The notes below the pieces were generated by a model, which saw only the letters and a list, made by a program, of their open reading frames with translations, did not search any database and had not been told where the DNA came from. Of a stretch of 33,398 bases of DNA, positions 205 to 27,773 are shown in pieces. The translations under genes and the position numbers were made by a program. The DNA is from Actinomycetota bacterium. Lineage in GTDB: Bacteria > Actinomycetota > Acidimicrobiia > Acidimicrobiales > CADCSY01. Each line of letters begins with the position of its first letter. The stretch's first letter is position 1. Location of the stretch: NCBI GenBank assembly GCA_004366205.1, contig SIRW01000102.1:1-33398 (forward strand), read 5' to 3'.

Positions 205-1791
205 TCATGCCGGCTGGAGCGAGCCGGACGAGTCCTGGGGGATGCCCCGCCAGCCGCTCCAGGTGCGCCGGCCTCGCCACTCCCACCACCCCGTGTCCGC
301 GTCCACCAGGCGGTACGAGTTGGCCGTGAAGCGGTTGTTCGAGGAGGTGAACACCGAGGTGTCGCCGGTGTCGTCGCACACCGCGGCGGCGTAGGCGCCG
401 TTGCCCGAGCCGTCGCGGGCGTACCGCTGGGTGACCACGATGGTGTTGCCGGTCACGTGGAGGTTGCGGAGCTTGTGGTCGCCCCTGGCCTGCTGGATGG
501 CCGTGATGCCGTTCCAGTTATCCTCCACGACGTTGCCCTGCACGGTGACGTCGGAGGAGTGCGCGACGAGGATCCCCGACCCGTAGCACCATGACCGGTG
601 CCCCAGGCCGTTGCGGCGCACGGTGTTGTGGCGGATCGTCGCCGCGTAGCTCACCTCGTGGAAGATGCCTTCACCCGTGTTGCCCTCGACCAGGTTCTGT
701 TCGTAGAGGGTGTTCGTGTTGCGCCAGTCGGTCCACAGGCCGGGGCCGACGTTGCTGTGCACGTGGTTCCCCCGCACGACGAGGTCGTTGGTGAGGACGA
801 ACTTCGAGCCTCCTGCCTCCCAGCCGGGGTCGAAGGCGCGGTTCGGGTTGTTGTAGGCGATCTCGTTGCCCTCCACGACGGTGCGGTCGCCGATGCCCCC
901 GATCCCGAGCTGCTCGTTGCGCAGGATCCGGTTGTTGCGCACGACCATGTCGCTGCCGATGCGGATCCCCATGCCGGCGTTGCGCTGCACCACGTTGTCC
1001 TCGACGACCCACCCGGTCCGGCTGTCGGCCGGGTTGTGCCCGCCCGCCTGGATGGCGCCCACTTGCGCGGGGTTGGCGTAGTGCTGGATCGTGAGGCCGC
1101 GGATCGTGACGTGGTCCGCGGTGCGGTCGAAGGCGAGGGTGGCGGCGCCCTCGCCGTCGAGGACGGCGCCGGGCTCGCCGATGAAGCTGTTGCCGTGCTT
1201 GGGCCGCACGTGCTGGCGCCGGTAGGTGCCCGCCGCCAGGCAGAAGGTCGTGCCCGCGGGGTGCGCGTCCACGGCCTGCTGGATGCTGTCGCCGGGCCGG
1301 AGCTGCACGCCCGCACAGCCCGTGGAGGTGCTGGTCCCGGAGGTGCCCGGGCTCTGCTCGACGACGGTCGGATCGGCGGTCACCTCGGTCGCCGCAGGCT
1401 CACCGGTGCCGCTGGTCGCGAGCGGGGCGGTGGTCGCCGAGACCACCGCCGACCGACCGCCCTCGCGCCCGCGCTGCTCCACGACGACCTGGTAGCTGTA
1501 GGTGGTTCCGGGCCGTAGACCGGTGTGGGCGTACGTGCGGTTCCGGGAGCGGCGGAGCAGCTCATCGCCCGCGGGGTCCTTGCGGTACAGCGCGTAGTCG
1601 ACGTTCCCGCGCACGTTGGTCCAGGACAGGTCGATCTGGGTGGACGACACCGCGACGGCGGTGAGCACCACGGTCGCGGCCGTGCGGTTGGGGTTCGCCG
1701 CGGCAGGCGTACCGGGGGGGTAGACGGTTGCGACGAGCACTGCGAAGACCAGGGCGGCGAGCGCGCCGCTTCGACGCAGTTGGGGTGGCAT
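205..1791 (-). CDS. secreted fibronectin type III + right-handed beta-helix protein
   Basis: This 528-residue protein starts at ATG 1791 with a GGGAG ribosome site 8 nt upstream. Residues 1-31 form a signal peptide (Arg-rich n-region, hydrophobic core, AxA-like site). Residues about 38-125 look like one fibronectin type III domain (DLSWTN and SYQVVV strands). A Thr/Ser/Pro-rich linker follows. Residues about 160-528 are a pectate-lyase-like right-handed beta-helix: repeated short turns of the type VVEDN, VVRNN, VVEGN, VVRGN and TIRHN, opening with a PGDSIQQAVDA segment typical of Pectate_lyase_3/NosD-like folds. Such proteins bind or cleave extracellular polysaccharide. No catalytic residues can be assigned safely, so lyase, hydrolase, epimerase or simple adhesin remain open. 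A c-di-GMP riboswitch directly precedes it, tying its production to the biofilm/motility second messenger. It is followed by a terminator hairpin, so it is probably monocistronic. Confidence 0.88.
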   Translation of the reverse strand: MPPQLRRSGALAALVFAVLVATVYPPGTPAAANPNRTAATVVLTAVAVSSTQIDLSWTNVRGNVDYALYRKDPAGDELLRRSRNRTYAHTGLRPGTTYSYQVVVEQRGREGGRSAVVSATTAPLATSGTGEPAATEVTADPTVVEQSPGTSGTSTSTGCAGVQLRPGDSIQQAVDAHPAGTTFCLAAGTYRRQHVRPKHGNSFIGEPGAVLDGEGAATLAFDRTADHVTIRGLTIQHYANPAQVGAIQAGGHNPADSRTGWVVEDNVVQRNAGMGIRIGSDMVVRNNRILRNEQLGIGGIGDRTVVEGNEIAYNNPNRAFDPGWEAGGSKFVLTNDLVVRGNHVHSNVGPGLWTDWRNTNTLYEQNLVEGNTGEGIFHEVSYAATIRHNTVRRNGLGHRSWCYGSGILVAHSSDVTVQGNVVEDNWNGITAIQQARGDHKLRNLHVTGNTIVVTQRYARDGSGNGAYAAAVCDDTGDTSVFTSSNNRFTANSYRLVDADTGWWEWRGRRTWSGWRGIPQDSSGSLQPA

Positions 1792-1802
1792 CGGTGGATC
1801 TC

Positions 1803-1886
1803 CCTTCGGTAGCCGGGCTACCTCGCGGCGCGCGAGGCCCCGTGGCTTTGCGTCCCCGCCTCACGACGGGTTTGCCTTTTCGGTGG
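1803..1886 (-). promoter_or_regulatory. cyclic di-GMP-I (GEMM-I) riboswitch
   Basis: The minus strand shows the conserved GEMM-I core in order. AAAAGGCAAACC (1880-1869) comes first. A GUGA-capped hairpin follows (CCCGUC/GGCGGG, 1870-1855). The near-invariant GGACGCAAAGCCAC lies at 1855-1842. A variable stem CCUCGCG/CGCGAGG spans 1837-1821. Last is GGUAGCCCGGCUACCG (1822-1807). GEMM-I aptamers bind cyclic di-GMP through a GNRA tetraloop-docked three-way junction (family knowledge). The aptamer's 3' strand ends right at the GAAGGGAG ribosome site (1807-1800) of the beta-helix gene, so control is most likely at translation initiation. Whether ligand turns the gene on or off cannot be read from the sequence. 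Confidence 0.9.
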
Positions 1887-2076: not shown

Positions 2077-3036
2077 ATGAAGCGGATCCTCGTGACCGGC
2101 GCCGGCGGCTTCATCGCCGGCCACCTGGTCAAGCGACTCAAGGCGGAGGGCGACTGGGTGCGTGCCGTCGACATCAAGCTGCCCGAGTTCGGCCCGAGCG
2201 CGGCCGACGAGTTCGCCAAGCTCGACCTGCGCGACCGCGAGGCCTGCCGGCGCGCCCTCGAGGTCGAGGGCGGCTTCGACGAGGTCTACCACCTCGCGGC
2301 CGACATGGGCGGCATGGGCTTCATCCACTCCGCCGAGTGCGAGATCATGCGCAACAACGCCCTCATCAACCTGAACATGATCGACGCCGCGGCGGCGGTG
2401 GGCGTTCCCCGGTACTTCTTCTCGTCGTCGGTGTGCGTGTACCGGGACATGCAGCCCGGCGAGCCCGAGCTCACCGAAGCCGACGCGTACCCCGCCCTCC
2501 CGGACAACGAGTACGGCTGGGAGAAGCTCTACGCCGAGCGGACGGCGGAGGCCTACGGGCGCCGCTTCGGGTTCGCGGTGCGGATCGCCCGCTTCCAGAA
2601 CTGCTACGGGCCTGAGGGGACGTGGCGGGGCGGGCGCGAGAAGGCCCCGGCGGCGATCTGCCGGAAGGTCGCCGAGGCGCCCGACGGGGGGACCATCGAG
2701 GTGTGGGGCGACGGCAGCGCCGTTCGGTCCTACACCTACGTCGACGACATGGTCGAGGGCATCGTCCTGCTCACGCGCTCGGACCTCGAGGGGCCGGTGA
2801 ACATCGGGAGCCCCCAGTACGTGACCGTCGACGAGCTCGTCGCCACCGTGGCGAAGGTGGCAGGCAAGGAGATCGCCATCGAGCACGTCGAGGGACCGGT
2901 GGGGGTGCAGTCCCGCAACTTCAGCCACGCCCGGATCGAGAGCCTGGGCTGGCGTGCCCGGCACGACCTCGAATCGGGCATCGCCCGGACGTTTCCGTGG
3001 ATCGCCGAGCAGGTCGCGCTCGCAGCCGCCTCCTGA
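2077..3036 (+). CDS. GDP-mannose 3,5-epimerase-like NAD-dependent epimerase
   Basis: This 319-residue extended SDR starts at ATG 2077 behind a strong GGAGGGAG ribosome site. The Rossmann motif TGAGGFIAGH is at residues 7-16. The signature LAADMGGMGFIHS (73-85) and the block SSSVCVYRDM (116-125) closely resemble plant GDP-D-mannose 3,5-epimerase. The four expected catalytic residues are present: Cys120, Tyr146 and Lys150 (YGWEK), and Lys189 in RGGREKAP. The plant enzyme makes GDP-L-galactose and GDP-L-gulose from GDP-mannose in the cytosol. Here the product probably feeds a surface glycan, since a WecG-type glycosyltransferase follows convergently 9 nt after the stop and a secreted beta-helix protein is divergent. 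A related specificity such as GDP-mannose 4,6-dehydratase is less likely given the conserved Cys/Lys pair. Confidence 0.85.
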   Translation: MKRILVTGAGGFIAGHLVKRLKAEGDWVRAVDIKLPEFGPSAADEFAKLDLRDREACRRALEVEGGFDEVYHLAADMGGMGFIHSAECEIMRNNALINLNMIDAAAAVGVPRYFFSSSVCVYRDMQPGEPELTEADAYPALPDNEYGWEKLYAERTAEAYGRRFGFAVRIARFQNCYGPEGTWRGGREKAPAAICRKVAEAPDGGTIEVWGDGSAVRSYTYVDDMVEGIVLLTRSDLEGPVNIGSPQYVTVDELVATVAKVAGKEIAIEHVEGPVGVQSRNFSHARIESLGWRARHDLESGIARTFPWIAEQVALAAAS

Positions 3037-3045
3037 GCGCGCCGC

Positions 3046-3825
3046 TCAGCCGATCAGCCGGGGACGCTCTCGCGCCACGGCGACCAGGAACGTGGCGTTG
3101 CCGACCAGGTACCGTCGCCACAGCCGGCGCGGCTCGCGCGTGAGCCGGTAGAGCCACTCCAGGCCCCGGTCCTGCATCCAGCGGGGCGCCTGGCGGAGCG
3201 TGCCGGCGTGGAAGTCGAAGGCCGCGCCGACCGCGGCGAGCGTGAGCCCGGTCCGGTCCCGGAACTCGTCGACGAAGCGGTCCTGGCGGGGCGTCCCGAG
3301 CCCCACCCACACCACGTCGGGCCGGGCGCTGCGCAGGCGCGCCGCCACCGCCTCCTGCTCGGCGGGGTCGAGGGGGCGGAATGGCGGGGACTCGGCCCCG
3401 GCGATCACCGCACCGGGCCAGCGCTCCTGCACGTTGGCCGTGAGCCGGTCGATGACCTCGGGCGTCGAGCCGTAGAAGTAGTGGCGCACGCCGGTCGCCC
3501 GGCCCCGGTCGAGCGTCGCCGCCATGAGGTCCGGGCCGTACACCCGCCCCTCGAGGGCGACACCCAGCCGGCGGCCGATCCAGACGAGCGGCATGCCGTC
3601 GGGCAGGTTCAGGTCGCCCCGGTTGATGCAGTCCGCGAAGTCGGGGTCTCGGGCGGCCAGCGCGAGGGTGAACGCGTTGCAGAGGTGCACGGCGCGGGGT
3701 CCGGGCTCGCGACGGCACAGAGCCTCGACCGCGTCGTCGAAGCGGTACAGGTCGATCCGCGTCCCGCAGCAGGCCATCTGCGGAACCTCGCCTGCCGAAC
3801 CCGCCCTCGTCGCACGGCTGGCCAC
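3046..3825 (-). CDS. WecG/TagA/CpsF family glycosyltransferase
   Basis: The protein belongs to GT26, which transfers a sugar (ManNAc, ManNAcA or another) from a nucleotide donor to a lipid-linked acceptor at the inner membrane face during capsule, teichoic acid or common-antigen synthesis. Family hallmarks seen are HLCNAFTLALA, the acidic NLPDGMPLVW block, the HYFYGSTPEVI segment and VWVGLGTPRQD. A basic C-terminal tail (EPRRLWRRYL) probably touches the membrane. The GTG at 3825 lies 9 nt after a TAGCCT box (near-leaderless). An alternative ATG at 3777 has a GAGG ribosome site and would give 243 residues, nearer the family core. It converges on the epimerase with only 9 nt between stops. Donor and acceptor are unknown. 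Confidence 0.85.
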   Translation of the reverse strand: MASRATRAGSAGEVPQMACCGTRIDLYRFDDAVEALCRREPGPRAVHLCNAFTLALAARDPDFADCINRGDLNLPDGMPLVWIGRRLGVALEGRVYGPDLMAATLDRGRATGVRHYFYGSTPEVIDRLTANVQERWPGAVIAGAESPPFRPLDPAEQEAVAARLRSARPDVVWVGLGTPRQDRFVDEFRDRTGLTLAAVGAAFDFHAGTLRQAPRWMQDRGLEWLYRLTREPRRLWRRYLVGNATFLVAVARERPRLIG

Positions 3826-5178: not shown

Positions 5179-5219
5179 CTCCTCAGCCCCCTCTGCACCG
5201 GCGCCGGGCGGTGGCCCCT

Positions 5220-5270
5220 CGAACTGTGAGGATTTTCTCACCGCAGGGGTCAGAAAACCCTCACAGTTCG
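5220..5270. repeat. 51-bp near-perfect palindrome between divergent genes
   Basis: Arms 5220-5242 and 5248-5270 pair at 21 of 23 positions around a 5-nt centre. The AT-rich core (TTTTCT/AGAAAA) stands out from the surrounding GC-rich DNA. It lies between the divergent lipoprotein and CLC genes, where a terminator is not needed. It may be an operator or an interspersed palindromic element. Compare 20884-20936 and 29230-29279. Confidence 0.7.
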
Positions 5271-5305
5271 CTTCGGGGGTGGGGTGGGTGGTGTAACCAA
5301 GGGGT

Positions 5306-24959: not shown

Positions 24960-25217
24960 TCAGCGGTCACGGAGGGCCGAGATCAGCTCGGACTTGCTCA
25001 TGCCCGAGCGGCCCTCGATGCCGACCTCCTTCGCCTTGTCGTAGAGCTCCTGCTTCGTCCAGTCCTCGTAGGACTGCGCCTTGCCGCCCTCACGGCCCGT
25101 CTCGGAGCGGGGCGAGTTGGCGATGCGGGCCGCCTTCTCCTTGCCCATCCCCTGCTCCCGGAGCCGCTCGTACTGGCGGTCGTCCTTGATGCTGGGTCCG
25201 TGGTCCTTGGTGGCCAT
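24960..25217 (-). CDS. small Rho-N/SAP-like nucleic-acid-binding protein
   Basis: The 85-residue soluble protein is highly charged. Residues 1-48 are a conserved-looking basic part (DRQYERLREQGMGKEKAARIAN, given in pieces). Residues 50-85 match a Rho termination factor N-terminal/SAP-type helix-extended-loop-helix (WTKQELYDKAKEVGIEG, MSKSELISALRDR). Such domains bind single-stranded or AT-rich nucleic acid. Proteins of this layout are widespread in actinobacteria, often described as general stress or plasmid-stabilising, but the role is unproven. The ATG at 25217 has GAGGGG about 11 nt upstream. Confidence 0.75.
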   Translation of the reverse strand: MATKDHGPSIKDDRQYERLREQGMGKEKAARIANSPRSETGREGGKAQSYEDWTKQELYDKAKEVGIEGRSGMSKSELISALRDR

Positions 25218-25272
25218 GCCCGACGCGTTCCCCTCGACCCCGGGCCGGAAACGCCACGGCGGGACGGCTTCC

Positions 25273-25278
25273 TACGAT
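25273..25278 (+). promoter_or_regulatory. leaderless -10 box (TACGAT)
   Basis: TACGAT ends 6 nt before GTG 25285 of the truncated GDPD gene, so the fragment keeps an intact promoter. Confidence 0.5.
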
Positions 25279-25284
25279 GGCGGC

Positions 25285-25563
25285 GTGCCCCCGTCCCCCT
25301 GGCCGTTCCTCGACCACCCCGGCCCGCTCGCCATCGCGCACCGGGGCGGGGCGGGCGACTGGCCCGAGAACACCATGCCGGCGTTCGAGGGCGCCGTCCG
25401 CCTGGGCGACCGCTACGTCGAGACCGACGTGCACGTGACCGCCGACGGGGTGCTGCTCGCCTTCCACGACGACCGCCTCGACCGGGTCACCGACCGCACC
25501 GGCGTGGTCGCCGAGCTGCCGTGGTCCGAGGTGGCCACGGCCCGGGTCGACGGGCGCGAGCAT
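25285..25563 (+). pseudogene. truncated glycerophosphodiester phosphodiesterase (N-terminal third)
   Basis: About 93 codons match the start of a GDPD: AIAHRGGAGDWPENTMPAF with the catalytic His-Arg and metal Glu, then VETDVHVTADGVLLAFHDD with the second metal/catalytic group. It stops matching after ARVDGRE, where family members continue with a proline-rich PIPRLEE-like segment. A whole enzyme is about 240 residues, so the remaining barrel and its acid/base residues are missing. The frame then runs on, without a stop, into the next ligase fragment. It cannot be catalytically complete. The start GTG 25285 has a leaderless -10 box. Confidence 0.7.
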
Positions 25564-25564
25564 C

Positions 25565-25627
25565 ATGACCGACCGCCCCCCCGTGCTTCGGGACGTCCTC
25601 AGCCAGCGCGACGGGTGGGTGGCCTGA
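25565..25627 (+). pseudogene. 20-residue stub, possibly start of an enoyl-CoA hydratase
   Basis: ATG 25565 begins a 20-residue frame (MTDRPPVLRDVLSQRDGWVA) that ends at TGA 25627. It looks like the first strand of an enoyl-CoA hydratase/isomerase (VL...RDGWVA is a usual lead-in) cut off before the catalytic core. The family guess is weak. It lies between two other broken genes and is in a different frame from them. Confidence 0.3.
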
Positions 25628-25635
25628 GCGGCGCC

Positions 25636-26920
25636 ATGGAGCTCCCCCTCACCCCGCTCGACTTCCTCGACCGGGCCGCCCGGCTGTTCCCCCGGCGCCA
25701 GGGCGTGATCGCCGGCGAGCGGCGCTTCACCTACGCCGAGTACGCCGAGCGGTGCCACCGCCTGGCCCACGCCCTCACCGACGAGCTCGGGGTCCGGCCC
25801 GGGGACCGCGTGGCGTGGCTCGGCGGGAACACCCACGAGGTGCTCGAGGCGTACTACGGGGTGCTGCTGGCCGGGGGCGTCCTCGTGCCCCTCAACATCC
25901 GCCTCGGGCCCGCCGAGCTGCGCTTCTGCCTCGATGACGCCGGGCCCGCCGTGCTGTTCCGCCACCCCGACCAGCCCGACCCCTCGGCCGGCGCCGGTGG
26001 GACCGGCCGAGTGCGCCGGGTCGTGCTCGGCGACGAGCACGAGGCGCTGCTGTCGGCCCAGCCCGCCGCGCCGGTCGAGCGCCCGGCGCTGGACGAGTCC
26101 GATCCGGCCGAGATCTTCTACACCAGCGCTCGCCGGGCGCGACACGACCAGCCTGGTGCAGGTGTCGATCGGCGGCGCGCCCGCCGGTCCCGACCTGCTC
26201 GCCGAGGTGGAGGACCGGCTCGGCTGCGAGTGCATCTGCGGCTACGGCATGACCGAGTCGAGCCCCACGCTCACCCGATCGCTCGACAAGCCCGGCGAGC
26301 CGCCTGCCCGGGCCCGGCGGGCGACCACGGGCCTGCCGATCCTCGGGGTCGACGTGCGGGTGCTCGGCGACGGCGACGAGGAGGTGCCGTGGGACGGCGT
26401 GACCACCGGCGAGGTGTGCGCCCGGTCGAACCACGTGATGACCGGCTACTGGAACCGTCCCGCCGAGACGGCCGAGGCTCTGCGCGGCGGCTGGCTGCGC
26501 ACGGGCGACGTGGCCGTGGTCGACCCCGACGGCTACCTCACGATCGTCGACCGCAAGAAGGACGTGATCGTCTCGGGGGGCGAGAACATCTCGAGCGTGC
26601 AGGTCGAGAAGTGCCTGGCGGCGCACCCCGCGGTGCGGGAGGTCGCCGTGGTGGGCATGCCCCACCAGCGCTGGGGCGAGGTCCCCCGGGCCTGGGTGGA
26701 GCTGCACCCGGGCGCCGAGGTCACCGAGGCCGAGCTCATCGGGTGGGTGCGCGACCGCCTGGCGCACTTCAAGGCCCCGCACGAGGTGGTGTTCGTGGAC
26801 GCCCTGCCGGTCGGCGGCACCGGCGAGGTGCTCAAGCACGAGCTCAGGCGGCGCGACCCGCCCCCCCGTCAAGAGGCGCCTTCGGGGCGCCGTCGGGCCG
26901 GTGGTGCTCCGAGGCGATGA
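25636..26920 (+). pseudogene. acyl-CoA ligase with central deletion and frameshift
   Basis: ATG 25636 opens a clear ANL ligase N-terminus (TPLDFLDRAARLFPRR, then YGVLLAGGVLVPLNIRLG) up to EIFYTS near 26125. The ATP loop GTTGxPKG should follow but is absent. The sequence jumps, with a +1 shift, to LAGRDTTSLVQVSIGGAPA and continues normally: CGYGMTESSP, VARSN-like block, LRTGDVAVVDPDGYLTIVDRKKD and GTGEVLKHELRR. Roughly 100-150 residues of the adenylation domain are lost. The C-terminal frame runs to 26920 and overlaps the antisense end of the YihY gene. It cannot make an active ligase; an assembly error is the main alternative to true decay. Confidence 0.75.
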
Positions 26921-27773
26921 AGTACCCCAGCAGCAGGAACAGGTTGGCGAAGTACAGCCAGATGCACAGCAGCACCACGGCGGCCATCCCCGTGCCCGCC
27001 ACCTGCTCCTCGAAGTCGGCTGCCTCCCCCGCCCAGAGGGCGAACCCCACCGACATGACGGCGATGGCCGCGGCGGCGACGCCGGCGCCGAGAGCCAGGG
27101 ACCGCACGCCGATCGGCCGGGGCCCGAACAGGCGGTAGATCACGCCCAGGACCACGGCGGTGGCGGCGAACCCGCCCACGAGCCCGCCGCCCCAGCCCAG
27201 CACCCGCACCAGCCAGCCGTCGTCAGCGGCGCCACCCGCCACCGACGCGATCAACAGGGCGCCCATGACGAACACGGGCAGGGTGGCCACGATCACGAGC
27301 GTCTTCAGCCGCCCCCGGACCCCGGCGAGGCTGCGCTCGGGCTCCTCGCTCAGCACGTCGAACGAGCGCAGGAGGCCCGAGCCGTAGCGGCTCGCGGTCC
27401 ACAGGGCGGCGGCGAGCGCCGGGATCCCGAGCCGGCCGCCGACCTCGGCGAGGTTGTCGAACATGCGGTCCACGCCCGTGCCCGCCGGCAGCAGCTCCGC
27501 CAGCCGCTCGCCGTAGTCCCGGATGCGGTCGGGGTCGATGAAGGCCCCGGTGATCCAGAAGGCGATGAGCAGCGTGGGCACGACCGAGACGAGGGCGTAG
27601 AACGCGAGCGAGCTGGCGAAGACCGCCACGTCGGTGTCGAGGATGCGCCGGGCGACCTTCTCGGGGACGCCGGGCAGCCGCTCGAGCGTGGCCTCGGTGT
27701 ACTCGTGGGCCTTCTCCCCGGCGTCGCTCGCGAGCTCGCCGGCGCGGTCGCGCAGCTCGTCGACGGAACGCAC
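26844..27773 (-). CDS. YihY/BrkB family membrane protein
   Basis: The 309-residue protein has six hydrophobic helices of the YihY/virulence-factor BrkB family: FASSLAFYALVSVVPTLL at the start, TASRYGSGLLRSFDV in the middle and CIWLYFANLFLLLGYFIASE near the end. The role is unknown; members were once called ribonuclease BN in error. A charged helical N-terminus (SVDELRDRAGELASD) lies in the cytosol. The GTG at 27773 is chosen; a TTG at 27806 overlapping the FAD-oxidase TGA (TTGA) is an alternative and would couple the two genes. Its 3' end overlaps the broken ligase. Confidence 0.78.
   Translation of the reverse strand: MRSVDELRDRAGELASDAGEKAHEYTEATLERLPGVPEKVARRILDTDVAVFASSLAFYALVSVVPTLLIAFWITGAFIDPDRIRDYGERLAELLPAGTGVDRMFDNLAEVGGRLGIPALAAALWTASRYGSGLLRSFDVLSEEPERSLAGVRGRLKTLVIVATLPVFVMGALLIASVAGGAADDGWLVRVLGWGGGLVGGFAATAVVLGVIYRLFGPRPIGVRSLALGAGVAAAAIAVMSVGFALWAGEAADFEEQVAGTGMAAVVLLCIWLYFANLFLLLGYFIASEHHRPDGAPKAPLDGGAGRAA

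Follow-up and report, generated by a model that had tools for sequence, protein, structure and literature searches.

A class I c-di-GMP riboswitch abutting the ribosome-binding site of a gene for a putative beta-helix carbohydrate-active enzyme in Acidimicrobiales

In the 33,398-nt stretch of an Acidimicrobiales genome analysed here (the window), an ordinary class I c-di-GMP riboswitch lies on the reverse strand, immediately before the gene of a 528-aa exported protein. According to our best explanation, which we hold to be reasonably probable as a whole, this riboswitch acts at the level of translation as an OFF switch, and its single target would be an exported beta-helix carbohydrate-active enzyme with an FN3 domain. 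The element itself is ordinary for its class and matters mainly as an entry to the c-di-GMP regulon of a poorly studied group, as well as a compact case in which c-di-GMP may set the translation of a secreted polysaccharide enzyme. Our literature search found no paper pairing c-di-GMP riboswitches with Acidimicrobi* taxa, and the order-wide control of exported proteins by such riboswitches seems to be little described.

When the whole window was scanned with cmscan against Rfam, a single match exceeded its gathering score, namely the full-length c-di-GMP-I-GGC model (RF03167: 66.0 bits, gathering score 59 bits, E = 1.2e-13) at positions 1885–1804 (−). The c-di-GMP-I model itself (RF01051) matches at 1886–1805 (−) with 66.1 bits (genome E = 1.2e-12), well above its gathering cut-off of 35 bits and over its full length (model positions 1–87), and the same search returned 0 matches in 14 control genomes. 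The bases that contact c-di-GMP in Vc2 (G20, A47 and C92; PMC4744006) are all canonical in the window element: G20 at 1876, A47 within CGC-A-AAGCC and C92 within CUACC-GAAG. When the aptamer (1804–1885, −) is folded alone, the minimum free energy structure recovers P2, P3 and P1b with a GUGA (GNRA) loop, but its folding energy does not differ significantly from that of shuffled sequences (z = −1.42) and is weak evidence by itself, so that the class assignment rests on the covariance model. The initial annotation had proposed a class I c-di-GMP riboswitch at 1791–1886, an interval running from the start codon to the 5′ end of the aptamer, and had named the absence of an RF01051 match as one possible refutation; both the covariance model and the contact bases bear the proposal out. 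The aptamer would thus be expected to bind c-di-GMP, and the same genome carries diguanylate cyclase-type genes, with 23 GGDEF matches.

Read along the reverse strand, the leader consists of a 5′ flank (CCGGACCGUCCGGCCC), the aptamer, the Shine-Dalgarno (SD) segment GGGAG (1800–1804, −), 8 nt and the ATG at 1791, which places the 3′ end of the aptamer 13 nt before the start codon. The SD overlaps the last base of P1 and thus touches its 3′ strand, just as the initial annotation had noticed. The core of P1 is made of G1881–C1808 and C1882–G1807, followed by a CA/AA internal loop and by three further pairs (C1885–G1804, C1886–G1803 and C1887–G1802), which use the G bases of the SD itself. Constrained ensemble folding (aptamer and P1 enforced) predicts that the CCC at the base of the 5′ P1 strand (1885–1887, −) pairs with the GGG of the SD (1804–1802) in the ligand-bound form. 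The probability of this pairing is about 1.0 when the 3′ end is short, for most 5′ ends that lie at 1892 or further upstream, and 0.35–0.9 in other folding windows. A promoter scan for sigma-70 promoters found none.

Under the proposed mechanism, binding of c-di-GMP would lock the P1 helix, the extension of which (CCC 1887–1885 with GGG 1804–1802) would cover part of the SD, so that high c-di-GMP would lower translation. At low c-di-GMP, the secreted enzyme would be produced and might, for instance, break down or modify extracellular polysaccharide as long as the cell is uncommitted to surface life. We lean slightly towards this OFF direction because the extension of P1 over the SD seems to recur in the order, judging from a comparison of loci drawn from 91 c-di-GMP-I riboswitches (found in 38 of 298 genomes). 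In the 25 loci whose start codon lies within 20 nt of the aptamer, the 12-nt 5′ flank is more strongly complementary to the SD segment of the same locus than to SD segments permuted from the others (−6.91 vs. −6.03 kcal/mol, p = 0.022; p = 0.019 for the 21 non-redundant loci left after removal of near-duplicates). The effect is modest, the permutation test was framed after examples had been seen, and the pairing in the window itself amounts to only 3 bp. Three control comparisons, two with segments further upstream and one with the start of the coding region, yielded no excess complementarity (p = 0.41–0.95). These sequence comparisons support the view that P1 extension over the SD is a recurring device in the order.

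The same aptamer could instead work as an ON switch, if the bound P1 ended just before the SD and kept CUACC from other pairing, thereby raising translation. Such a direction has a precedent in Vc1, the class I riboswitch before gbpA, where less c-di-GMP leads to less Vc1-dependent expression (PMC4744006), and it agrees with the unconstrained folds, in which the 3′ segment enters other strong helices (e.g., GGUAGC:GCUACC) that hide the start region when the folding window is longer. Folding does not settle the direction, since the G bases of the SD are also paired, by other partners, in many folding windows without the aptamer constraint, and the start codon is frequently inaccessible whether or not the constraint is applied. 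Nevertheless, the predicted pairing of the SD with CCC once P1 is formed, together with the recurrence of flank:SD complementarity in similar loci, makes the ON switch possible but rather unlikely, and we retain the OFF direction.

That the element might belong to the c-di-GMP-I-GGC variant, with an altered ligand preference and no sensing of c-di-GMP, appears very improbable, even though RF03167 is the best clan member according to cmscan. Its score is equalled by that of RF01051, and the base at position 47, from which the variant takes its name, tells against it: the RF03167 consensus is ACGC-G-AA, whereas the window reads ACGC-A-AA, and A occupies this position in all 90 readable relatives of the order too. 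GGC-variant membership is rejected on this position, and because G20, A47 and C92 are canonical, we file the element under ordinary c-di-GMP-I in spite of the choice made within the Rfam clan. Nor does the element, with its G20, have the A at position 20 that marks the cGAMP-sensing GEMM-Ib riboswitches. Elsewhere in the order, position 20 is A in two riboswitches (L067:3013-3086 −, in G020:C79, and L102:503-577 +, in G113:C8) and C in L099:1493-1570. Besides, a subgroup (L056, L057, L134, L135 and L136) carries AGC instead of CGC ahead of A47, and every member precedes a small-protein gene, in most cases with a product of the pattern MIG..LTTLAGK. L134 and L136 have U where the partner G83 would be expected, which by eye looks like an inter-helix C-G turned into A-U.

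The gene under the riboswitch (205–1791, −) encodes a protein beginning with a hydrophobic segment typical of export, taken by eye as a signal peptide, followed by an FN3 domain (residues 43–119) and a right-handed parallel beta-helix (residues ~160–528), as delimited from Pfam, profile matches to the PDB, the alignment of homologs, and a structural model with a fold search. Pfam thereby bears out the exported FN3/beta-helix architecture that had been read from the sequence. Among solved structures, the GH120 xylosidase TsXylC is the nearest in sequence (1.9e-10 with the single sequence, 2.6e-18 with a 15-member profile), the mannuronan C-5 epimerases AlgE4 and AlgE6 coming next by profile (4.6e-12 and 2e-10). 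The nucleophile and the acid/base of TsXylC are D382 and E405 (PMC8954004), which align with D355 and E379 of the target, so that the latter combines similarity to TsXylC with the catalytic Asp and Glu of GH120. Across the 15 homologs of the alignment, K330 and D355 are invariant and E379 is conserved in at least 90%. The AlphaFold2 model, confident over residues ~160–450 and weak in its N-terminal part, superposes best on AlgE6 and AlgE4 (Z ~36, 2.2–2.4 Å over ~320 residues), but tailspikes and numerous further beta-helix enzymes match it as well. Between the two roles initially suggested, polysaccharide-acting or adhesive, the profile matches to GH120 and AlgE and the conserved D355 and E379 thus favour the first: the target is more likely a carbohydrate-active enzyme than an adhesin, its activity and substrate being predicted from sequence and model. 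Since AlgE-type epimerases give the best superpositions, the reaction class is not fixed among hydrolase, lyase and epimerase, and the enzyme could be an epimerase or a lyase instead.

Two genes related to sugar nucleotides or glycosyl transfer adjoin this locus. The divergent gene at 2077–3036 (+) is, as initially proposed, GDP-mannose 3,5-epimerase-like (PDB 2c59, E = 1.5e-85; 8sg0, 3.3e-84; Pfam Epimerase), matching the characterised GDP-mannose 3,5-epimerases over its whole length at ~1e-85, with the next family at 2.8e-28. The WecG/TagA/CpsF glycosyltransferase gene at 3046–3825 (−; PF03808, 7.4e-57; TIGR00696) had been said to follow the target but, read along the reverse strand, it comes before the riboswitch, and the + strand epimerase gene separates the two. 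Consequently, as far as the contig shows, the riboswitch can act on the beta-helix gene only, and the suggested glycan locus holds in part only. A local glycan operon co-ordinated by the riboswitch is hardly credible and is rejected on gene order since, although the three genes are adjacent and two of them are sugar-nucleotide or transferase genes, neither the divergent epimerase nor the upstream transferase can be on the downstream transcript. Just past the stop codon of the target gene, a perfect 10-bp inverted repeat (156–194, −; arms 156–165 and 185–194) is a possible transcript end, beyond which the contig stops; it has no T-run and was not called by a terminator scan that requires one. 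Two further features of the window deserve mention: a near-perfect inverted repeat at 5219–5273 (CGAACTGTGAGGATTTTCT / AGAAAACCCTCACAGTTCG, one mismatch, by eye), possibly a regulator site, separating a − strand gene from the + strand gene of a CLC channel, and a single open frame at 25081–27138 (+) in which a GDPD domain and an AMP-binding domain, both partial, occur together, perhaps through fusion, frameshift or misassembly.

At the 15 loci encoding homologs of the target, cmscan found no riboswitch; upstream DNA was available to the scan at several of them (including L168, L169, L140, L159 and L141) and was barely present at L139 and L158. Two genomes with a target homolog (G154 and G274) have c-di-GMP-I riboswitches elsewhere, before pilins and not before the homolog. 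A conserved pairing of riboswitch and target is therefore not borne out at these loci, and since the closest homologs lack the riboswitch, conserved linkage lends no support to the function of the target. For the same reason, the coupling of riboswitch and enzyme looks lineage-specific, suggestive of a local recruitment.

In the phylum, RF01051 has matches in 155 of 396 sampled genomes. Two more riboswitches of this class are found in the genome of the window, one before a type IV pilin gene (C58) and the other before the gene of a CAP-domain protein (C31; PF00188, 3.2e-17), and most of the 91 riboswitches of the order precede genes for exported proteins. Their targets include a cluster of 43 proteins, mostly CAP-like by their N-termini (Pfam having been run on the member from the genome of the window only), and another of 18 pilins. 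Many more are single proteins that for the most part look exported, such as GH5-, GH26- and beta-helix-type enzymes and a camelysin-like protein. Outside this group, riboswitches have previously been described in front of pilin, fimbrial and chitinase genes (PMC6366702). The CAP-type leaders (L051, G000:C31:11245-11334 +, and many other loci of the order) display a repeated pattern, UGGGGGC..GCCCUCCGUGGG..GGAGGG, in which CCCACG, the 5′ strand of P1, is complementary to CGUGGG, and GCCCUCC to either GGGGGC or the SD; from sequence, such a leader looks like a three-way translational switch. The pilin leaders (L050, G000:C58:6471-6568 −, and 17 other loci) have a different P1 (CUCUUG/CUGGAG), a long-range leader helix (UGCGAGC/GCUCGCA) and, in most cases, a conserved ATCCATTG before the SD. 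The duplexes of both platforms exceed those of shuffled partners, but native and swapped duplex energies reveal no covariation in either of them (−9.02 vs. −8.99 and −17.72 vs. −17.66 for the CAP and pilin platforms, respectively). We give an even chance to a broader reading, in which class I c-di-GMP riboswitches would be a control layer dedicated, in this order, to the exported surface, with CAP-domain proteins, type IV pilins and glycan-active enzymes that are secreted. The platform would then depend on the target class, the CCCACG/CGUGGG exchange serving CAP genes and the long-range helix pilin genes, while P1 would mask the SD in all other cases, including the enzyme of the window.

Compared with known systems, the target shares with the GH120 beta-xylosidase TsXylC (PDB 3vst/3vsu) the beta-helix core and the aligned Asp382/Glu405 pair, but it is only ~12% identical in the structural match, is devoid of the large insertion and has an FN3 domain added, whereas AlgE4 and AlgE6 superpose on it better than TsXylC does, with 22% identity. 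The aptamer resembles Vc2 of Vibrio cholerae (PDB 3IRW) and the RF01051 family in its contact bases, its GNRA loop and its P1-P2-P3 fold, and differs from them in having the SD directly against P1, without a distinct expression platform, and a P3 where no standard tetraloop receptor is obvious by eye. GbpA is a secreted colonisation factor, and Vc1 before gbpA is likewise a class I aptamer preceding the gene of a secreted, surface-related protein. Yet the transcript of Vc1 begins 244 bp before the start codon, and its riboswitch acts ON (PMC4744006), whereas the aptamer of the window lies 13 nt from its ATG and would rather act OFF.
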